Shown here: piece by piece, positions 1-29,020 of the stretch
How the letters are laid out: each line of letters opens with the position of its first letter
How positions within the stretch are numbered: position 1 is the stretch's first letter
NCBI GenBank assembly: GCA_018624035.1
Contig: JAAZUU010000010.1
Span: 1-36,013 of the forward strand
Source: Rhodobiaceae bacterium
GTDB taxonomy: Bacteria > Pseudomonadota > Alphaproteobacteria > Puniceispirillales > Puniceispirillaceae
Length of the DNA: 36,013 bases
Direction: 5' to 3'
Translations under genes and position numbers: made by a program
Notes under the pieces: generated by a model
Seen by the model: only the letters and a program-made list of their open reading frames with translations
What the model was told of the DNA's origin: nothing
Database searches by the model: none

Positions 1-383
1 ACATCGCCATGGCCGCGGCGGATGGCCGGGTAGACGCGCTTGACCGCGCCATCGACAAGGCGTGGAGCGAGCAGCAGGCGAGTGTGACCGTGCTTCGCGG
101 ATCACAGGCCCATTTCCGGCAATTGCTGCAGGCCGCCCGCGCGATGCGGCATGGCGGTTCCGCCCAGCAGGCCGTCAAATCCCTGCGCCCACCGGTACAT
201 TTCCGGCTCCAGGACAGGCTGACATCACAGCTTCGCCATTGGTCACCGGAAACGCTGATGGATGCTGTCAACCGGCTCCAGGATGCCGAGCTGACGGTGA
301 AGACCGGCAGCGCCAATGATACGGCAATCTGCGCACAGACATTGCTTGGCCTCTGTCTTCGCGCGCGGGCGCTTCGCGGCTAG
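1..383 (+). CDS. holA: DNA polymerase III delta subunit, C-terminal part
   Basis: This is the 3' end of a gene that begins before the window; the reading frame starts at base 3. HolA is the clamp-loader delta subunit, which opens the DnaN sliding clamp during replication. The visible 126 residues look like the C-terminal helical collar domain of HolA: a segment reading LDRAIDKAW, then a helix-rich stretch with FRQLLQAARAM, then a final region with WSPETLMDAVNRLQDAE and a C-terminus rich in Leu and Arg. The family call also rests on position, since holA sits next to parB in many alphaproteobacteria. It converges with parB and the two stop codons share the CTAG at 380-383. The N-terminal AAA-like domain cannot be judged here. 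Confidence 0.82.
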   Translation, partial: IAMAAADGRVDALDRAIDKAWSEQQASVTVLRGSQAHFRQLLQAARAMRHGGSAQQAVKSLRPPVHFRLQDRLTSQLRHWSPETLMDAVNRLQDAELTVKTGSANDTAICAQTLLGLCLRARALRG

Positions 384-1411
384 TCGATCCCCAGCTTCGC
401 CATCACGGTTTCGAACTGTTCGAGACTGTTGAAGCTGATCGCCATACGACCCTTGCCGGCCGCCTCATCCCAGTTAATGGCGAGACGCAATCCGAGAGCC
501 TTTTCAGCCTTTGCTTCAAGCGCCCTGATATCGGCGGATTTCCCGGGCGCGGCCGTGGATTTCGACGCGCCCGCAGCACCATGTTTGCGGCGCGCCACCA
601 TAGCCTCGACCTGGCGCGCCGACAGCCCCCTTGCCGCCACTTCGCGAGCAAGTGCCACACAATCTTCATCGCCAACCAGCGGACGCACCTGACCCATGCT
701 CAGCGTGCCATTGACAACCATATCGCTGACTTCGCGTGGCAGTGACAACAGACGAAGCAGATTGGCGATATGGCTCCGCGACTTGCCGATGATCTGTGAC
801 AGCTGTTCCTGCGTATAGCCGAAACTGTCAATCAGCTGCCTGTATCCCTCGGCCTCCTCGACCGCACTCAGATCGGCGCGCTGCACATTCTCAATCAGCG
901 CAAGCTCGTAGGCCTCCTCATCCTCCAGATTGCGGATGATAGCCGGAACGCTGTGAAGCTGCGCCATCTGCGCTGCGCGCCAGCGTCGTTCACCGGCAAT
1001 CAGCTCATACCGGTTGGAAGCACCGGCACGCGGGCGCACCAGAATTGGCTGGACGAGACCCTTGCTGCGGATTGAGTCCGCCAGCTCGGACAGTGATGCG
1101 GTATCAAAGCGACGGCGTGGCTGCCAGGGTCCAGAATTGATCCATTCGATGGGCAGCTCGGTCAGACCTGTTTGTGCGGGTGCGGATGCAGGTGATGCAG
1201 GACCCGGCGCAGCGCCCGCCGACGCACCGGTTGTCGCGGCGATCCCCGCATCACCAAGCAGCGAGGACAGACCACGGCCAAGGCCGCGGCTCTTGCCGGC
1301 GGAAGACATCGTCGGCTTGACGGTTCCGGATGAGGTACGGCCCCCGGTCTGCGCCGCAGCGGATGTTCCTGCCTTGGCTGATCCTTTACGGGGCTCGGAT
1401 GTCTTTGCCAT
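380..1411 (-). CDS. parB: Chromosome partitioning protein ParB
   Basis: ParB is a CTP-dependent clamp that loads at parS, spreads along DNA and is moved by ParA to segregate origins. The 343-residue protein has a low-complexity Ala/Pro/Ser N-terminus containing RGLGRGLSSLLGD (about residues 42-54), the typical ParA-interacting start of ParB. The CTP-binding ParB/Srx fold follows with GERRWRA at about 140-146 and ENVQR at about 174-178. A helix-turn-helix lies at about 200-224 (QLSQIIGKSRSHIANLLRL), and a C-terminal dimerisation region ends the protein. The start at 1411 has GGAG about 8 bases upstream. The frame stays open upstream to 1528 through a tandem repeat, but that extension is unlike ParB. 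The gene lies downstream of parA in the same direction. Identification is very secure. Confidence 0.96.
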   Translation of the reverse strand: MAKTSEPRKGSAKAGTSAAAQTGGRTSSGTVKPTMSSAGKSRGLGRGLSSLLGDAGIAATTGASAGAAPGPASPASAPAQTGLTELPIEWINSGPWQPRRRFDTASLSELADSIRSKGLVQPILVRPRAGASNRYELIAGERRWRAAQMAQLHSVPAIIRNLEDEEAYELALIENVQRADLSAVEEAEGYRQLIDSFGYTQEQLSQIIGKSRSHIANLLRLLSLPREVSDMVVNGTLSMGQVRPLVGDEDCVALAREVAARGLSARQVEAMVARRKHGAAGASKSTAAPGKSADIRALEAKAEKALGLRLAINWDEAAGKGRMAISFNSLEQFETVMAKLGID

Positions 1412-1468
1412 CGTTCGATGTCTCCATTCTTGCTTCTCGGCCGGACGATCATTCACCGAGTGGCTCTG

Positions 1469-1530
1469 GGCCCATCTCCGGCCCATATCTCGGGCCCATA
1501 TCTCCGGCCCATATCTCTGGCCCATCATCC
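1469..1530. repeat. 13-bp tandem repeat in the parA-parB spacer
   Basis: Three full 13-bp units of GGCCCATATCTCN (1480-1492, 1493-1505, 1506-1518) are flanked by a shorter related unit on each side, starting at 1469 and 1519. The array fills most of the 129-bp gap between the parA stop and the parB start. Units differ mainly at the last base, so the array looks recently amplified. Read on the minus strand it would be transcribed between parA and parB. Whether it acts as an mRNA element or is a neutral minisatellite cannot be told from the sequence. Confidence 0.9.
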
Positions 1531-1540
1531 AGAGCTTGTC

Positions 1541-2317
1541 TCAGGCCGCTTTACTCTCCTGGCGCAACAGCTCCGCCGCCAGCGCGGCATAGGCCTGTGA
1601 GCCGGGACATTTCAGATCATAGATCAGAACCGGTTGACCGAAAGACGGTGCCTCCGAAACCCGCACATTACGCGGCACTACAGTTTTATAGACAAGATCA
1701 CCGAAATGCGTGCGCACATCGCTCGCCACCATCGCCGAGAGCTTGTTTCGGGTGTCGAACATCGTCAACACGATTCCCTGCATCTGCAGATCACCATTCA
1801 GACCGGCACGAACCGCCTCGACCGTCCGCATAAGCTGTGACAGCCCTTCCAACGCGTAGAATTCGCACTGCAGCGGTACCAGAACTGAGGTCGCGGCTGT
1901 CAGCGCATTGACCGTCAGCATGCCAAGAGAGGGGGGGCAGTCAATTATAACATATTGATATTGTTTTGAAATTCTTCTTATTGCCATCTTCAGCCTGAAT
2001 TCCCGGTCAGGCATGTCCGACAATTCCACTTCGGCGGCTGACAGATCGACAATGGTCGGAATGATGTCAAGCCGGGGCACCTGCGTCGCCTGAATCGCGA
2101 CATCCGCGGTGCTGCTGCCAGCGATGACGCTGTAGCTGTTGTGAATCCTGTCCTCAACGCCGAGGCCGGTGCTGGCATTGCCCTGCGGATCAAAATCGAC
2201 AAGAAGCACCGAACGGCCACAGGCGGCCAGCGCGGTGGCAAGATTGATCGATGTTGTTGTCTTTCCCACACCGCCCTTCTGATTGGCGATGGCGATGATA
2301 CGCTGGGCTTGCGGCAT
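1541..2317 (-). CDS. parA: Chromosome partitioning ATPase ParA (Soj type)
   Basis: ParA is a deviant-Walker ATPase that binds DNA non-specifically as an ATP dimer and is released by ParB, pulling origins apart. The 258-residue protein carries the deviant Walker A motif KGGVGKTT at residues 14-21, the DFDPQGNAS motif at about 41-49 and the VIIDCPPSLG Walker B region in the middle. The size and short N-terminus match chromosomal Soj/ParA rather than plasmid ParA with an HTH. It starts 19 bp after the rsmG stop, and parB follows 129 bp later, so rsmG-parA-parB is probably co-transcribed. The two parS sites in this window are its functional partners through ParB. Identification is very secure. 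Confidence 0.97.
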   Translation of the reverse strand: MPQAQRIIAIANQKGGVGKTTTSINLATALAACGRSVLLVDFDPQGNASTGLGVEDRIHNSYSVIAGSSTADVAIQATQVPRLDIIPTIVDLSAAEVELSDMPDREFRLKMAIRRISKQYQYVIIDCPPSLGMLTVNALTAATSVLVPLQCEFYALEGLSQLMRTVEAVRAGLNGDLQMQGIVLTMFDTRNKLSAMVASDVRTHFGDLVYKTVVPRNVRVSEAPSFGQPVLIYDLKCPGSQAYAALAAELLRQESKAA

Positions 2318-2336: not shown

Positions 2337-2948
2337 CTAGGACACCATCAGGTCTATCACAGAACCGTTCGGATTGGTAAGGCTTGGATGCAAGCGCCAG
2401 GCAAGATTCGCCGGATCGCCAAGCGCTGCCAGCTCGGCCTCGGCCTGCGCGCCCTTCAGGAACAGGCAGCGCGTTCCGGGACGAAGTTGCCTTGCCAGAA
2501 GCGGCAGCAGACGGTCAAGTGGCGCGAGCGCCCGCGCCGTGATGACTGACGCCTCAAGGCACGGCATATTCTCAATACGTTCATTATGAACTTTTGCCGT
2601 CAGTCCGCATTCGCGGATCACCGTATGGAGAAAGATCGCCTTTTTCTGATCCGATTCGACAAGATGACATTCCGCATTGGTCATGATCGCCAGCACAAGT
2701 CCGGGAAATCCAGCACCGCTGCCAACATCGACAAGGCGCGGGGATCCCTGGGGAACAAGCGGCGCCAGCTGCGCTGAATCCCAGATGTGACGCATCCAGA
2801 TATCCCGAAGGCTTGCCGGCGATACCAGATTGACCCGTGGCTGCCATTTCTCGACAAGCCCGACATAGGTTTCAAGCTGATGCATTGTTTCACGTGAAAC
2901 ATCGACCTGCGCGGCGGTTGGCACGGCGGCTGGCACGGGGGTTTTCAT
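2337..2948 (-). CDS. rsmG: 16S rRNA (guanine-527-N7)-methyltransferase RsmG (GidB)
   Basis: RsmG uses S-adenosylmethionine to methylate N7 of G527 in 16S rRNA (E. coli numbering), in the decoding region of the small subunit. The 203-residue protein shows NLVS at about 40-43, RHIWDS at 53-58 and the SAM-binding [11 protein letters not shown] at 73-83, all characteristic of the family. Its start codon overlaps the mnmG stop in an ATGA tetranucleotide, so translation is probably coupled. A perfect parS site lies inside the N-terminal coding region and is read as DVSRET (residues 16-21), which explains a peptide that has no obvious enzymatic role. The mnmG-rsmG-parA-parB order is widespread in bacteria. 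Confidence 0.96.
2886..2901. promoter_or_regulatory. parS: parS centromere site (perfect palindrome)
   Basis: The sequence TGTTTCACGTGAAACA matches the canonical bacterial parS palindrome at all 16 positions. It lies inside the rsmG coding region, about 1.5 kb from parB and about 7 kb from the proposed origin. ParB is expected to load here. The frame reads it as Asp-Val-Ser-Arg-Glu-Thr. Confidence 0.97.
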
Positions 2949-6424: not shown

Positions 6425-6946
6425 ATGATGACCGTTAACACAGCGGCGGCAGGGCTTTTCCGCGCAACCCTGCACAGCCAACTCGGATATATGCGCGCCG
6501 TCAGTGACGGGCGCCATCTGATCCGCCTCGACTGGGACCAGAGCCTCTTTGCCACCCCCGACAATCCAGATGATGTTTCACGTGAAACCTGCCGGCAGCT
6601 TGCCGCCTATCTTGCCGGTGAACGGCAGGAATTCACCCTGCCACTCCGCGCCGCAGGAATGTCGGCGACCGCTCTGTGCTGGCTGACAGCCATGGCGCGG
6701 ATTCCCTACGGCACAACGATGAGCTACGCGGAATTTGCCAGACTTGCAGGCAAACCTCGGGCGCCGCGCACCGCCGGCACCGCCTGTTCGACCAACCCGA
6801 TTCCGGTGATTTATCCCTGCCACCGGGTCGTGCGGTCGGACGGGACGCTCGGCAATTATGGTGGTGTGAGTAACATGCCCGCACGGCATCCGGACAATCT
6901 TGGCCGCAAACAGGCGCTGATTGATCTTGAACGGCGGTTCGCCTAG
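6425..6946 (+). CDS. ogt: Methylated-DNA--protein-cysteine methyltransferase (Ogt/MGMT family)
   Basis: Proteins of this family repair O6-alkylguanine by moving the alkyl group to their own cysteine. The C-terminal domain shows YPCHRVV with the acceptor cysteine at about residue 138, preceded by the NP pair (TACSTNP) and followed by GTLGNYGG, as in the family. The N-terminal part is less conserved. Two adjacent ATGs (6425 and 6428) lie behind a weak AAGG; an upstream GTG at 6419 is less likely. A near-perfect parS lies within the gene and reads DVSRET, the same peptide seen in RsmG. It converges with rho and both stop codons share the CTAG at 6943-6946. The leftward neighbours are unrelated in function, so it looks like an inserted single gene in a conserved arm. 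Confidence 0.9.
6574..6589. promoter_or_regulatory. parS: Second parS site (15/16 match)
   Basis: The sequence TGTTTCACGTGAAACC matches the parS palindrome except for the last base. It is 3.7 kb from the perfect copy in rsmG and about 3.2 kb from the proposed origin. It is read in frame as DVSRET, exactly as in rsmG. Chance occurrence of a 15/16 match this close to parAB is very unlikely. Confidence 0.92.
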
Positions 6947-8334: not shown

Positions 8335-8763
8335 TCAGAACGGCTTCACCACAGCCATGACGACGATGACAATCATCAGCGCTGTCGGCACCTCGTTCCA
8401 GATCCGGTAGATACGGGCTGGTCGCGGCTGCTCGTCATTCTCCAGCTGCCGACGCATCTTGGAAAAGATCCCATGACACGCAGCCATGCCAAGAACGCAC
8501 GCCACCTTCACCTGCATCCAGATCTCCAGCAGAAGTTGCGGTGCCAGAACAAGCATCCAGACGCCGAACAGGAAACTCGCGATCATAGCCGGGTTCATGA
8601 TCGCCTTCAGCAACCGGCGTTCCATCACCTTGAAGGTCTCCGCGCGAACCGATCCGATCACCGTGTCGGCATGATAGACATAAAGCCGCGGCAGATAGAG
8701 AAGCCCGGCCATCCACGCGATGATGGAAATGACATGAAGCGCCTTGATGATCTCGTAAGTCAT
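8335..8763 (-). CDS. hemJ: Protoporphyrinogen IX oxidase HemJ
   Basis: HemJ is the membrane enzyme that oxidises protoporphyrinogen IX to protoporphyrin IX, the step before iron insertion in haem synthesis, in bacteria lacking HemG or HemY. The 142-residue protein has four likely membrane helices. The first, IIKALHVISIIAWMAGLLYLPRL, carries the conserved His near residue 10, and later segments read MIASFLFGVWMLVLAP and a C-terminal TALMIVIVVMAVVKPF. Its start overlaps the hemE stop by 4 bp (8760-8763), so hemE-hemJ form a translationally coupled haem unit. The gene order hemE-hemJ-rho next to the origin is common in alphaproteobacteria. Confidence 0.93.
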   Translation of the reverse strand: MTYEIIKALHVISIIAWMAGLLYLPRLYVYHADTVIGSVRAETFKVMERRLLKAIMNPAMIASFLFGVWMLVLAPQLLLEIWMQVKVACVLGMAACHGIFSKMRRQLENDEQPRPARIYRIWNEVPTALMIVIVVMAVVKPF

Positions 8764-9791
8764 GACATCTGCCCTCGCACGCGGTTGACCAGCTCATGAA
8801 CATGCGGCTCCGGCGTTTCCGGTGTTATACCATGGCCAAGATTGAAGATATGTGGCCTGCCGGATACAGCCTCGAGAATTGATCCGATCGCCCGGTCCAT
8901 CGCCTGGCCACCGGCAATCAGGCTGAGCGGGTCAAGATTGCCCTGTAATGTGACGTGACCTGGAAGATGTTCAGCCGCCCAGGCGATATCAACACCATGG
9001 TCAAGGCCGATACCATCAACCGGCGTGTCATCACAATAGGCTATCAGCCCGTCACCGATGCCTTTCGGAAATCCGATAATCGGCTGCATGATTCCACGAC
9101 TCCTGAGAGTGTCTATGATGCGTCTGGCCGGCCCGCTGACCACACGCCGCCTGAAATGTGCCGGCACGGCGCCAGCCCAGCTGTCGAACAGCATCAGGGC
9201 ATCCGCACCGGCCCGCGCCTGTATCTCAAGAAACTCGATGGTTGCCATTGTGACGATATCCAGAAGCCGGTCGAATTTGTCATCATTGTCCCAGATCCAT
9301 TTTCGGGCAGTGGCAAAATCGCGTGAGGACCGCCCTTCCAGCATATAGGTGATGATCGTCCAGGGCGCGCCGGCAAAGCCGATCAGAGCTTTGTCACGGG
9401 TCAGATTCTTCCGGCAAAGCGAGATGGACTCGGCAACAGGTGACAATCTCTTGGCAATGAGACCAAGATCGTCTTCATTGATCTCGGAAGGATCGGAAAG
9501 CGGGTCGAGCAGGGGTCCCTGTCCAGTTACAAACCTCACATTCCTGTCCATTGCCCATGGCACCAGCAGGATATCCGAAAAGATGATCGCGGCGTCGAAG
9601 CCGAATTTGTCTAACGGTTGCAGCGTGACTTCGACAGCTTTCTCGGGGTTCAGGCAAAAGGAAATAAAATCAGGTTCTGAAGCACGTACCGCCCTGTATT
9701 CGGGAAGATAGCGTCCAGCCTGCCGCATGAGCCAGATCGGCGGTATTTTCCGACCCGTTCCGGTCAATGTGTCGAGGAAGATGTTTGTCAT
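8760..9791 (-). CDS. hemE: Uroporphyrinogen decarboxylase
   Basis: HemE removes four carboxyl groups from uroporphyrinogen III to give coproporphyrinogen III in haem synthesis. The 343-residue protein has the N-terminal signature IWLMRQAGRYLPEYR with the substrate-binding arginines, followed by a TIM-barrel sequence with FSDILLVPWAM and LQGNLDPL further on. Length and motifs are normal. It is the last leftward gene before the 350-bp non-coding gap proposed here as oriC; hemE flanks the origin in Caulobacter and in Rickettsia. Its promoter should lie in the AT-rich part of that gap. Confidence 0.97.
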   Translation of the reverse strand: MTNIFLDTLTGTGRKIPPIWLMRQAGRYLPEYRAVRASEPDFISFCLNPEKAVEVTLQPLDKFGFDAAIIFSDILLVPWAMDRNVRFVTGQGPLLDPLSDPSEINEDDLGLIAKRLSPVAESISLCRKNLTRDKALIGFAGAPWTIITYMLEGRSSRDFATARKWIWDNDDKFDRLLDIVTMATIEFLEIQARAGADALMLFDSWAGAVPAHFRRRVVSGPARRIIDTLRSRGIMQPIIGFPKGIGDGLIAYCDDTPVDGIGLDHGVDIAWAAEHLPGHVTLQGNLDPLSLIAGGQAMDRAIGSILEAVSGRPHIFNLGHGITPETPEPHVHELVNRVRGQMS

Positions 9792-9851
9792 GACGATACT
9801 CTCTATACAATAGATAGATATTTATAAAGAGAATGATGGATTGGTAGGTCC

Positions 9852-9860
9852 TGTGGAAAA
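9852..9860 (-). promoter_or_regulatory. DnaA-box-like 9-mer
   Basis: On the minus strand this reads TTTTCCACA, one change from TTATNCACA and an exact match to the relaxed form TTWTNCACA. It lies next to the AT-rich segment of the proposed origin. Confidence 0.6.
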
Positions 9861-9874
9861 CGCCTGTCGCATTT

Positions 9875-9883
9875 TCATTCACA
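9875..9883 (+). promoter_or_regulatory. DnaA-box-like 9-mer
   Basis: It reads TCATTCACA, one mismatch (position 2) to TTATNCACA. It is 23 bp from the previous box start and in the opposite orientation. Confidence 0.5.
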
Positions 9884-10020
9884 GCCTGTCCCCAGTCCTG
9901 TCAACAGCTGGAAGACCCTACTTGCAAGCCTGACAGTCATCTGCCGGCACCATCCCCACAATTCGTCCGGTGACAGGATGGTGTAATACATCCGGGGATT
10001 GAATATGCTGTTTCCTGCAC

Positions 10021-10029
10021 TTCTGCACA
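10021..10029 (+). promoter_or_regulatory. DnaA-box-like 9-mer
   Basis: It reads TTCTGCACA, one mismatch (position 3) to TTATNCACA. It lies in the ppsR-proximal half of the proposed origin. Confidence 0.5.
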
Positions 10030-10141
10030 GGCGCCTGTCCGGCTGTATGTTTCATCCCCAGAAGGCGGCAACTGACACACATGAAGTCCCCAGCGCGTGA
10101 AAACCCGTGACAGCCCTGACCGGACATCCTAATTTCACCAC

Positions 10142-10966
10142 ATGAATGACGCGACCCTGCATATTCATCTGGTGTCTGATTCCACAGGCGAGACCGTACA
10201 CCAGATCACGCGCGCCTGTGTCGCCCAGTTCTCCAACGTGCGGACGACTGAACATGTCTGGACACTTGTCCGCAGCCACAACCATGTCGACGCTGTCTTT
10301 GCGGGGGTTGACCGCAATCCGGGCGTTCTGTTGATGAGTGTTGTTGATGAGGATCTGCGCGCCGAATTCGAACGCCGCTGCACTGAGCGCGGGATCCCGC
10401 ATGTGTCGGTTCTCGACCCTGTCGTCGATCTGCTTGGGCGGATCCTTGGCAAACCGATGCGCAACCGCCCCGGTGGCCAGCGTCAGCTCGACACCGCCTA
10501 TTTCGACCGGATGGCCGCGGTCGATTTCGCCGTCCGTCACGATGACGGGCTGAACATGGCCGAACTTCATAACGCCGACATCCTGCTTGTCGGTGTGTCG
10601 AGAACATCGAAAACCCCGACATCGATGTATCTGGCGCATCGCGGATACAAGGTGGCAAATTACGCGCTGGTACCGGGAGTTCCCTTTCCAGCACATTATA
10701 TCGACAGGCTGAAACTGTTTGTGGTTGGTCTGACCAATGATCCGAAACGCCTGAGTGTTGTGCGCAAGACCCGCCAGATCGCGCAGTCGGATGAAAGCAA
10801 CGTCACCTATACCGACCTCGAGCGGATCACCGAGGAAGTGCGTGACGCGCGGCGGCTTTTTGCCCGGAATCAATGGCCGGTGATCGATGTCACCAGGCGC
10901 TCGGTCGAGGAAACCGCCGCGGCTGTCATCCAGCTTTATACCAATTGGCAGGAAGAAAACGCGTGA
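10142..10966 (+). CDS. Pyruvate phosphate dikinase / PEP synthase regulatory kinase-phosphorylase (PPSR, DUF299)
   Basis: Members of this family are bifunctional: they phosphorylate (using ADP) and dephosphorylate a threonine in pyruvate,phosphate dikinase or PEP synthase and so switch the enzyme off and on. The 274-residue protein starts MNDATLHIHLVSDSTGETVH, the typical family start with the SDSTGET motif, and carries the P-loop GVSRTSKT at 151-158. The length is normal. It is the first rightward gene beyond the proposed origin and overlaps the maf start in GTGA (10963-10966). Whether its target is PpdK or PpsA cannot be told, since neither gene is in the window. Alphaproteobacterial members usually regulate PpdK. 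Confidence 0.94.
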   Translation: MNDATLHIHLVSDSTGETVHQITRACVAQFSNVRTTEHVWTLVRSHNHVDAVFAGVDRNPGVLLMSVVDEDLRAEFERRCTERGIPHVSVLDPVVDLLGRILGKPMRNRPGGQRQLDTAYFDRMAAVDFAVRHDDGLNMAELHNADILLVGVSRTSKTPTSMYLAHRGYKVANYALVPGVPFPAHYIDRLKLFVVGLTNDPKRLSVVRKTRQIAQSDESNVTYTDLERITEEVRDARRLFARNQWPVIDVTRRSVEETAAAVIQLYTNWQEENA

Positions 10967-26210: not shown

Positions 26211-27266
26211 ATGAATGACGCCACCCTTCTCGGCCTGAAACCAAGGGCGATCGAAATTTTCAACGCCCTTGTCGCCGCCTATCTTGAATCCGGCCAGCCA
26301 ATCGGGTCGAAGATGCTGGCGCGGCGGCTGCGCCTTGATCTGTCGCCGGCATCGATCCGCAGCAACATGAGCGATCTCGAGGCGGCCGGGCTGCTGTTCT
26401 CGCCGCATGTCTCGGCCGGGCGGGTGCCGACCGAAACCGGTCTGCGCATGTTCGTCGACGGGTTGATGGAATACAGTCCCGACCTGACGGATGAGGACCG
26501 GATGTCGATCGACGGGGAATGCGCGATGCGCGGCATATCCGTTGATGATCTTCTGGAAAAGACGACCCGCACCCTGTCCGGCCTGTCACGCTGTGCCAGC
26601 CTTGTGCTGTCCCCGAAAAGCAATGCCGAGTTGCAGCATTTCGAATTCGTGCCGCTTGGCGAGAATCGGGCCCTTGCGGTGTTGGTGCGCATGGATGGCC
26701 GCGTGGAGAACCGGCTGATCGATCTGCCTGCCGGGGTGCCGCAATCGGCGATGGTGCGGGCCAGCAACTACATGAATGCGCGTCTGTCCGGGCGTGACCT
26801 GCGTGCCGCCACCGGGCTGATCCGCTCGGAGATCGCCGTGCACCGGGCCGAACTCGACGAAATGTCCCGCCAGCTTGTCGAGGCCGGTGTCGGTCTTTGG
26901 ACCGCGGGAGAGTTGGCGGAGGATGCCGTGCTGGTGATGCGGGGCCAGGCCAATCTTCTCGAGGATCTTGAGGCCGGTGATGATCTCGACACGATCAGGC
27001 AACTGTTCTCCGAGCTCGAGGCGCGAGAGAACGCACTTCGCCTTCTGGAAGCGACAAGTGGCGGCGACGGGGTGAAAATCTTCATTGGTGCCGAGCACCG
27101 GATGTTTGTGAATACCGGCTGCTCGCTGGTCATCGCGCCCTATCACAATGCCGACAGGAATGTCATCGGCGCCATCGGCGTTTTGGGGCCTCGTCATATG
27201 AACTACGCCAGGATTATCCCGATGGTCGATTACACCAGCCGTGCCATTGCCGCGGTCCTCAGTTGA
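26211..27266 (+). CDS. hrcA: Heat-inducible transcription repressor HrcA
   Basis: HrcA represses groESL and sometimes dnaK operons by binding the CIRCE inverted repeat and is activated by GroEL. The 351-residue protein has an N-terminal winged-helix (about 1-75) with IGSKMLARRLRLDLSPASIRSNMSDLEAAGLL, followed by SAGRVPTETGLRMFVD, the family signature. The C-terminal GAF-like domain ends with FIGAEH and IGVLGPRHMNYARIIPMVDY, as in HrcA. Length is normal. No CIRCE was found in front of hrcA, grpE, dnaK or dnaJ, so its target (probably groESL) is elsewhere. The 3' end overlaps the convergent zinc-ribbon gene by 8 bp. Confidence 0.96.
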   Translation: MNDATLLGLKPRAIEIFNALVAAYLESGQPIGSKMLARRLRLDLSPASIRSNMSDLEAAGLLFSPHVSAGRVPTETGLRMFVDGLMEYSPDLTDEDRMSIDGECAMRGISVDDLLEKTTRTLSGLSRCASLVLSPKSNAELQHFEFVPLGENRALAVLVRMDGRVENRLIDLPAGVPQSAMVRASNYMNARLSGRDLRAATGLIRSEIAVHRAELDEMSRQLVEAGVGLWTAGELAEDAVLVMRGQANLLEDLEAGDDLDTIRQLFSELEARENALRLLEATSGGDGVKIFIGAEHRMFVNTGCSLVIAPYHNADRNVIGAIGVLGPRHMNYARIIPMVDYTSRAIAAVLS

Positions 27267-27777
27267 TGTCCCGAAGATGACCGATTGATTCCGTCAGGAT
27301 CTGCCGCGGCCCGGCAAGCCAGCCATGACCGGCAAGGTTGCGGAGTTCGATATAACCTTCATGCTGACCCCACAGCACCGCGCTGCCGGTGACTATGCCG
27401 GCGCACAGGATCATGATCAGCCGGTCCAGACGCGCCGTATCGCCAGTGCCATGATAGGGAAAACCGGCAGCGCAACAGGGACAGCTCAGCCGCAACGGCG
27501 TGTCAGGCGACATAAGCCCATCCCGCGCCCGTCCCGGCACCCTCAACTCCGCGTTACAGACATGACAGACAATGAGGTGGTGGCTCTGCCGCGCCGAGAC
27601 CGATCTGTCGAAAGGGCGCCGGATATCATGCGCAGGCCCAAAATCATCACGCGGGCCCTGCCGCTGAACGGTGAAGACGCGGCGGCAGCGGTGACAGCGC
27701 ACCGGCATGTCGTAATAGCGTCGCAGCCTGTCCGGCACCGACAGGGCGTTCTGGCAATGCGGGCTTGTCAGCTGCAT
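27259..27777 (-). CDS. Uncharacterised zinc-ribbon membrane protein
   Basis: I do not recognise this 172-residue protein beyond its ribbons. The N-terminus resembles the MJ0042-type zinc ribbon (pattern CPxC...CxxC), but the first Cys is replaced by Ser: it reads SPHC, then CHRC about 20 residues later. A second four-Cys ribbon is formed by CHVC (about 91-94) and CPCC (about 119-122). Near the C-terminus one hydrophobic segment (about 140-160, LDRLIMILCAGIVTGSAVLWG) looks like a membrane helix, which would place the ribbons on one side of the membrane. It is convergent with hrcA and upstream of a small hairpin (27798-27822). Metal binding of the first ribbon is doubtful. Confidence 0.7.
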   Translation of the reverse strand: MQLTSPHCQNALSVPDRLRRYYDMPVRCHRCRRVFTVQRQGPRDDFGPAHDIRRPFDRSVSARQSHHLIVCHVCNAELRVPGRARDGLMSPDTPLRLSCPCCAAGFPYHGTGDTARLDRLIMILCAGIVTGSAVLWGQHEGYIELRNLAGHGWLAGPRQILTESIGHLRDIN

Positions 27778-27797
27778 CTGTGATCGCGACCCGTTGA

Positions 27798-27822
27798 CTG
27801 GACGGCGGGATGTGCCGTCCGG
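27798..27822. other. Inverted repeat in the zinc-ribbon gene leader
   Basis: GGACGGC (27800-27806) and GCCGTCC (27814-27820) pair around a 7-base loop; a wobble pair and one more pair extend the stem to 9. No T-run follows on either strand, so it is not a plain terminator. It lies about 20-45 bp upstream of the zinc-ribbon gene start and downstream of the acidic-protein gene. It could be a binding site or an RNA hairpin. Confidence 0.55.
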
Positions 27823-27883
27823 TCCTTTGTGCCGCGACAGTGACTAAAAAATCGTTAGCAAGGTGAAAAATAAGTCTCGTCGA

Positions 27884-28840
27884 TTAGCTGTCGGATTTCT
27901 CTTTCGCCGTTTGGGTCTTTTTTGCACGGGTGGCTGCCTTCTTCCCGGAGGCCTTCTTCCCGGCCGCGCCGGCGGCGGCCGCTTTTTTCGCGCGTGTTTT
28001 CGGTTGCGCCGCGGGAAGCTCCTGCAATGCCTCGGCAATGGCAGCCTTGATCATTGGCCGCAGATCAGCCGCCACCACAGCCTGTAATTCGCTGCGCATC
28101 GCGGCGACAAGCTCGGCCTTTATCGCGGCCAGATCGACCGGCTCAGGCGAATCATCGGATTTCCCGACAGCGGCGGCGATTTCCTGCATCGCGGCCTCCA
28201 TATCCGGGTCATCAATGCTGTCCGTATTGCCAGCATCGCTGATGGTGCGGTCGATATCGGTGCCGGCCGGGCCGTCAATGCTGCCAAGGGCGGTCTTGTC
28301 TTCCCAGGCCTGTCGCACCAGCTTCTGGATGTCAGCGACATCAATATCGGCCATCGCATCGCTGTTGGCCGGTGCCGGCGGCTCGTTCGGAAGCGCCGGT
28401 TCGGACGCGCTTGCCGGCCTGTCGGTGTTCATGTCGGTGTTGGTATCGCCGCCGATATCGTCACTGTTGGGCGATTCGGAGATGGCGGGGGTCGGGGGGC
28501 TGTCAATGGCAGGCAATGCCTCGCCGGCATCGAAAGGCCCCTCCGTGTTGCCACCAGAACCGGCCACCGGACGACCTTGCGCGGCGCCTGTCATGTCCGT
28601 GGATGGCGGCGGCGCGCCACGGGGTGATATCCTGTCCGGCATTTCACGTTCGGCAAGGTTGCGCAAATCATCAAACCGGCGGGCGATTGGCGGACGCCCG
28701 TCGCCTGCCCGGGTCTCGAAATCCACCTCGACCGGGGTCATGGCTTGTGATTCGATCACGGCAAACATCGCCTGGCCCTCGGCGGCTGATTTCCGCGACT
28801 GCTCATAAAGCGCCATGATTGATTGTCTGACGGTCGCCAT
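27884..28840 (-). CDS. Uncharacterised acidic protein with Lys/Ala-rich tail
   Basis: I do not recognise a family. Taking the ATG at 28840 (AGAGG close upstream; a further ATG at 28903 is possible) the protein has 318 residues in three parts. The N-terminal 60 residues are helical with mixed charge (VRQSIMALYEQSRKSAAEG). The middle (about 75-235) is Pro/Asp/Ala-rich and strongly acidic, probably disordered. The last part is a predicted long helix (about 236-276, IKAELVAAMRSELQ and LRPMIKAAIAEALQEL), then a 42-residue Lys/Ala/Thr tail of the kind seen in histone-H1-like bacterial proteins. DNA or RNA binding through the tail is likely, but that is inference. Its layout recalls scaffold proteins such as PopZ, though I see no PopZ signature. 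It is divergent from grpE. Confidence 0.7.
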   Translation of the reverse strand: MATVRQSIMALYEQSRKSAAEGQAMFAVIESQAMTPVEVDFETRAGDGRPPIARRFDDLRNLAEREMPDRISPRGAPPPSTDMTGAAQGRPVAGSGGNTEGPFDAGEALPAIDSPPTPAISESPNSDDIGGDTNTDMNTDRPASASEPALPNEPPAPANSDAMADIDVADIQKLVRQAWEDKTALGSIDGPAGTDIDRTISDAGNTDSIDDPDMEAAMQEIAAAVGKSDDSPEPVDLAAIKAELVAAMRSELQAVVAADLRPMIKAAIAEALQELPAAQPKTRAKKAAAAGAAGKKASGKKAATRAKKTQTAKEKSDS

Positions 28841-29020
28841 TGGCCTCTGCCCTGTCTGCGTGGTGACGGCCCGGGCCGTCTGCAATGATGGCAAGTCTCG
28901 CATATTCAATTTCTGCCGACAACATGACCGGCCGGCCGTGGTCCGACCCGTTCGGGTGTCGCCGCACTGTGGCCATCACGCAACTTCCATGCCGTTTGTG
29001 AAGATTCCGGCGTCCTTGCC

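Follow-up and report, generated by a model that had tools for sequence, protein, structure and literature searches.

The 350-bp region between hemE and ppsR (positions 9792-10141) in the stretch of Rhodobiaceae bacterium DNA considered here is almost certainly the chromosomal replication origin, being of the hemE/ppsR (COG1806) type of Alphaproteobacteria. This is a real yet ordinary origin of a known type, with a place and general layout as in Caulobacter and Rickettsia, and was resolved by comparison with relatives. A preliminary description of the same DNA had proposed a candidate oriC at this site, a proposal supported by the GC-skew switch found at the orthologous gap in two relatives, by the top DnaA-box cluster of three long regions falling in the gap, by the conserved register of those boxes and by the published boundary genes of such origins. 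The gap moreover contains an unstable AT-rich element.

Gene neighborhood of the hemE-ppsR gap

The window, namely, the whole stretch of DNA analysed, corresponds to the complete contig C157 (36,013 bases) of a draft genome of 2.75 Mb in 207 contigs, with dnaA of this genome being found on a different contig. Read from left to right, the window contains a partial holA, parB, parA, rsmG, mnmG, mnmE, ogt, rho, hemJ and hemE, followed by the 350-bp gap, to the right of which lie ppsR, maf, coaE and dnaQ and, farther right, hrcA, grpE, dnaK and dnaJ. As had been described, genes from parB to hemE are oriented leftward except for ogt (i.e., parB, parA, rsmG, mnmG, mnmE, rho, hemJ and hemE), and ppsR, maf, coaE and dnaQ are oriented rightward, such that hemE and the COG1806 gene ppsR are divergent, flank the gap and both point away from it. 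The product of ppsR belongs to PF03618, the former DUF299. The GC content of the window is ~60% and that of the gap is 51%. Coordinates of the features considered are listed in Table 1.

The assertion that this is the only gap of more than 300 bp in the window holds with those gene models that can be supported, start codons having been fixed for part of the genes; two of the models behind this assertion (27259-27777 and 27884-28909, both on the minus strand) are without a Pfam match and owe their support to conservation seen by tblastn, mainly in the genus member G009. These two adjacent ORFs, located between hrcA and grpE (27259-28909), share 46% and 41% identity with their G009 counterparts, and the first contains paired Cys motifs.

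Table 1. Features of the window, in order of position; offsets are counted from the first DnaA box, and functional names within the gap are predicted
Feature	Position	Strand	Remarks
parB	380-1528	-	TIGR00180, 183.1 bits (cut-off 58.45)
parA (ParA/MinD-type ATPase)	1541-2317	-	No model above cut-off, name based on adjacency to parB; 92% identity in G009
parS, exact 16-bp palindrome	2886-2901		
parS, one mismatch	6574-6589		
hemE, left boundary gene	8760-9791	-	TIGR01464, 364 bits (cut-off 302.95)
oriC (almost certain), hemE-ppsR intergenic region	9792-10141		Conserved box array; skew switch at the orthologous gap in relatives
Putative DNA-unwinding element	9796-9838		hemE end of the gap; least stable 42-mer of the window
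DnaA-trio-like spacer	9839-9851	+	TAG at 9845-9847, offset -7 from the first box
DnaA box TTTTCCACA (TGTGGAAAA on the plus strand), first box	9852-9860	-	Adjoins the unwinding element; 1 mismatch; GTGGAAA invariant in 10 genus gaps
DnaA box TCATTCACA, offset 23	9875-9883	+	Offset filled in 19/30 gaps (up to 2 mismatches)
Degenerate DnaA box CTGTCCCCA, offset 34	9886-9894	+	2 mismatches; offset filled in 27/30 gaps (up to 2 mismatches) or 24 (up to 1)
Degenerate DnaA box CCATCCCCA, offset 98	9950-9958	+	2 mismatches; offset filled in 13/30 gaps
DnaA-box-like TTCTGCACA, offset 169	10021-10029	+	Offset common to only 4/30 gaps
DnaA box TCATCCCCA, offset 200	10052-10060	+	1 mismatch to TTATCCCCA; ATCCCC invariant in 10 genus gaps
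Probable leaderless ppsR promoter, GTGACA-N17-TAATTT	10107-10135	+	6 bp before ATG; function inferred
ppsR (Kinase-PPPase, PF03618; COG1806/DUF299), right boundary gene	10142-10966	+	

An ordered array of DnaA boxes

The preliminary description reported three 9-mers in the gap that differ by no more than one mismatch from TTATNCACA, and these are present, beginning at 9852 on the minus strand and at 9875 and 10021 on the plus strand. The whole window contains 10 such 9-mers, corresponding to 0.10 expected per 350 bp, and when the gap was shuffled 300 times with dinucleotides retained, 0.3% of the shuffles gave three or more. The preliminary description did not include the boxes at 9886, 9950 and 10052, which emerge only upon comparison with relatives. 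Speaking against an origin here is the weakness of the window's own boxes, with two 9-mers in the gap lying within one mismatch of TTATCCMCA. A scan of the same genome for TTWTNCACA yielded 46 scattered places, one of them in the gap, as compared to 28 for the reversed control, but, given the degeneracy of the window's boxes, carries no information. The window's boxes include GC-richer variants, CTGTCCCCA and CCATCCCCA among them, which probably accounts for the array being difficult to recognize without relatives. In a table of PMC4285127, TCATTCACA is the Helicobacter pylori entry, and two of the window boxes resemble forms tabulated as being of high affinity elsewhere.

The hemE-ppsR gaps of relatives were next considered. 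Ten of the 12 genomes of the genus, that containing the window included, encode ppsR, and in all 10 hemE is divergent, with the gap spanning 350-485 bp. Alignment of these 10 gaps revealed a common order, namely, an AT-rich stretch, a short spacer, GTGGAAA, DnaA boxes in the forward direction and ATCCCC, with both GTGGAAA and ATCCCC being invariant. In the family, ppsR was detected in 52 of 61 genomes; loci were taken from the best 30 matches, so that the gaps of more distant genomes lie outside the comparison. The resulting set of 30 gaps, which includes that of the window's genome, draws on all 10 loci of the genus (L013-L022) and on 20 of the 21 loci from the wider family (L024-L044), L026 having been dropped since hemE lies outside it; L023 contains a fragment of ppsR and lacks the gap, and the outgroup loci L003, L004 and L006 were kept apart.

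When the 30 gaps were aligned on the first box, boxes with up to two mismatches recurred at fixed offsets. Following offsets 34 and 23 (Table 1), offset 46 was filled in 18 gaps and offsets 98, 132 and 199 in 13 each, while offset 200, that used in the window, was filled in seven. The first box itself was found in all 30 gaps (up to two mismatches), a value reached partly by construction, as this box was chosen as the best match within a 30-bp range; the other offsets were unselected. Beyond the anchor, the 30 gaps contain 103 boxes with no more than one mismatch, whereas shuffled gaps gave 5.6 on average and never more than 11, and the most boxes at any one offset was 24, as opposed to no more than 2 upon shuffling, although this control overstates significance, given that the sequences are related and hence non-independent and that non-overlapping base pairs were shuffled, a procedure only roughly preserving dinucleotides. 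The box cluster is accordingly weak in the window yet strong and of conserved register across the 30 family gaps.

A tandem pair, TTATCCMCA-NN-TTATCCMCA, was found with up to two mismatches at seven places in the 12 genus genomes, all in the hemE-ppsR gap (G001, G005, G006, G007, G008, G009 and G011). Matches with three mismatches added 11 places (18 in total), none in any located gap, with the reversed control giving eight matches when as many as three mismatches were allowed; one of the 11 places falls in G003, which, like G002, offers no ppsR match by which to locate the gap. The gaps of G000, G004 and G010 contain no match to the tandem pattern at up to three mismatches. In three relatives, scanned over 155, 140 and 175 kb, the densest 400-bp DnaA-box cluster was the gap, with 4, 5 and 4 boxes, respectively, versus no more than 2 elsewhere.

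Several observations count against an origin at this place. Counts of TTATNCACA-type boxes were not clearly above those of shuffles in G010 (reached by 8.3%) and G007 (40.7%), and for TTATCCMCA, 26.3% of shuffles reached the G007 count. The outgroup gaps of Cohaesibacter (L003 and L004) contain no box with up to one mismatch. Six of 11 named hemE loci (L005 and L008-L012) gave no ppsR match in the flanking DNA examined, and two others, L002 and L007, are, judging by length, on the same contigs as the G010 and G005 loci. In the case of L005, from SAR116 AG-911-J10, where hemE is found without a detectable ppsR in the flanking DNA examined, the origin boundary may be rearranged.

The AT-rich element and the adjoining spacer

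The AT-rich stretch previously assigned to 9797-9838 is indeed 76% AT, and the 42-mer beginning at 9796 is the least stable of the window in terms of nearest-neighbor energy. As such, the gap has the AT-rich element of a hemE/COG1806 origin, as judged on composition and stability only. The same stretch (9796-9838) probably also holds the hemE promoter. Counted back from the first box toward this element, TAG trinucleotides occur at -7 in 21 of the 30 gaps, at -10 in 10 and at -19 in 12; in the window, TAG is present at -7 and missing from -10 and -19.

GC skew, promoters and the position of dnaA

The GC-skew analysis called for in the preliminary description was performed on relatives, the window's own genome being a 207-contig draft. 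In each of two single-contig family genomes, G026 (2,753,527 bases) and G031 (2,592,803 bases), 20 sampled 20-kb stretches revealed the skew to change from negative to positive on passing the orthologous gap from left to right, with the reverse switch found about half a chromosome away. The two exceptions were both from G026, namely, a left-arm stretch at 980 kb (+0.014) and a stretch at 420 kb, next to the far switch (-0.004). In contiguous DNA, the cumulative skew minimum of G026 (140 kb) was at 1,808,564, inside the gap, and that of G031 (175 kb) at 1,491,844, 38 bp into ppsR.

These results bear on the possibility that the gap is only a divergent hemE/ppsR promoter region, with hemE transcribed from the AT-rich stretch and the conserved 9-mers serving DnaA in the role of a transcription factor. 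Such a reading draws on the ppsR promoter sequence GTGACA-17-TAATTT, the position of which is kept in eight of the 10 genus gaps, and on the AT-rich block abutting the start of hemE. It is nonetheless highly improbable, since the skew switch of the two single-contig relatives falls at the gap and since an ordered array of DnaA boxes over ~200 bp exceeds what a promoter needs; a promoter and an origin can, moreover, coexist.

That the true origin instead lies nearby but elsewhere, such as beside dnaA, which in G009, G026 and G031 is separated from the gap by a mere 75-86 kb, is barely credible: although the cumulative skew minimum is displaced rightward from the gap both in the window (by ~15.9 kb) and in the G009 contig (by ~4.9 kb), on shallow slopes, those of G026 and G031 are at the gap on the fine scale, the dnaA loci of G000, G009, G031 and G026 contain 1, 1, 4 and 1 boxes with up to one mismatch in ~4.3 kb each, and no 400-bp stretch outside the gap holds more than two boxes in the scanned regions of G009 and G031, which include dnaA (that of G026 lies beyond the region scanned). 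An origin beside dnaA was hence rejected, there being no box cluster around this gene.

Chromosome segregation and cell-cycle control

Both parAB and an exact parS were found within 10 kb of the gap, as had been noted, with 2886-2901 and 6574-6589 being called parS on the basis of its consensus. The scanned regions of G009, G026 and G031 contain 2, 8 and 2 exact copies, respectively, with the eight of G026 (L093-L097 and L058-L059; 1.74-1.88 Mb) lying within ~5 kb. As a separate observation, a 42-bp stretch inside the conserved parA (1941-1982) is 83% AT in a region of ~60% GC, with no other 42-mer of the window reaching so high a value.

In agreement with the preliminary description, neither a full CtrA site (TTAA-N7-TTAA) nor GANTC occurs in the window gap. 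Across the 30 gaps, full CtrA sites were found in one and GANTC in eight, and a strict IHF consensus in three, that of the window not among them. The outgroup gaps L003, L004 and L006 contain 1, 1 and 2 TTAA-N7-TTAA sites, respectively, with GANTC also being present. The window's genome does encode a CtrA-like regulator (240.8 bits against its best model, NF045991, falling short of the cut-off of 350), GcrA, detected in 54 of 61 family genomes and in 28 of the 28 of good quality, and a CcrM-like methylase with a RAMA domain. PF06627 (SciP) was detected in none of the 61 family genomes, the Caulobacter control being positive. Two near-identical CtrA-like C-termini are found near contig ends (L107 and L111, in G000 contigs C182 and C103), pointing to duplication of ctrA or, alternatively, to overlapping contigs in the assembly.

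These data thus lend no support to direct repression by CtrA at this origin, although a diverged motif may be employed. The earlier suggestion that control may differ from that in Caulobacter is compatible with full CtrA sites being present in one of 30 gaps, but is not proven. It can be tentatively proposed, with somewhat less than even confidence, that in this family, probably the Puniceispirillaceae (SAR116), the origin retains the ancestral hemE/ppsR place and a fixed box array without direct CtrA or CcrM input at oriC, despite CtrA-like, GcrA and CcrM-like proteins being encoded in the window's genome. If true, DnaA would time initiation, with CtrA acting elsewhere or via a changed motif.

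A proposed course of initiation

Given the layout of the gap, DnaA most likely occupies the TGTGGAAAA box that borders the unwinding element, together with the weaker, mostly same-direction boxes to its right. DnaA would then extend leftward onto single-stranded trios of the TAG type, upon which the AT-rich stretch at the hemE start (~9796-9838) would open and the helicase would be loaded there, with forks leaving both ways. DnaA binding, strand opening, a bidirectional start and trio function are all inferred.

A base-resolved origin in a marine lineage known mostly from drafts would be of use for metagenomic peak-to-trough estimates of growth rate and for correct assembly orientation. The conserved box register likewise offers a comparative set for addressing which DnaA boxes are essential and how control of oriC varies without CtrA sites.

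Comparison with known origins

Among the literature matches listed, none describes a SAR116 or Puniceispirillum origin by title, and a prior prediction in DoriC is possible. The phrase 'origin of replication' is absent from the excerpted text of PMC8547437, addressing SAR116 genomes, and PMC8116508 makes no mention of SAR116, DoriC or hemE.

In the basal unwinding system, as outlined in an excerpt of PMC8287927, a DnaA box is found next to consecutive 3'-GAT-5' trios. The window gap resembles Bacillus subtilis oriC in that a DnaA box is adjoined by TAG trinucleotides which, in steps of three bases, lead to an AT-rich stretch, a resemblance only; unlike that system, the window offers TAG at -7 and not at -10 or -19.

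Closer parallels are found among Alphaproteobacteria. According to an excerpt of PMC1914354, the Rickettsia prowazekii origin lies between the same orthologs as does that of Caulobacter, an arrangement most likely ancestral. The predicted origins of R. prowazekii and R. typhi share the boundary genes of the window gap and are of similar size (384 and 383 bp, respectively), yet are ~82% AT, whereas the window gap is 51% GC. In Caulobacter crescentus, the same excerpt places the origin between hemE and CC0001 (COG1806, DUF299). The preliminary description had named only the hemE side of this likeness, and both sides in fact match. Cori differs in having five CtrA sites, as opposed to no TTAA-N7-TTAA in the window gap, and the PF06627 gene is missing from the 61 family genomes. 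Otherwise, the two origins are alike in both boundary genes, an AT-rich element and several DnaA boxes, and the window's genome, like that of C. crescentus, encodes CtrA-like, GcrA and CcrM-like proteins.
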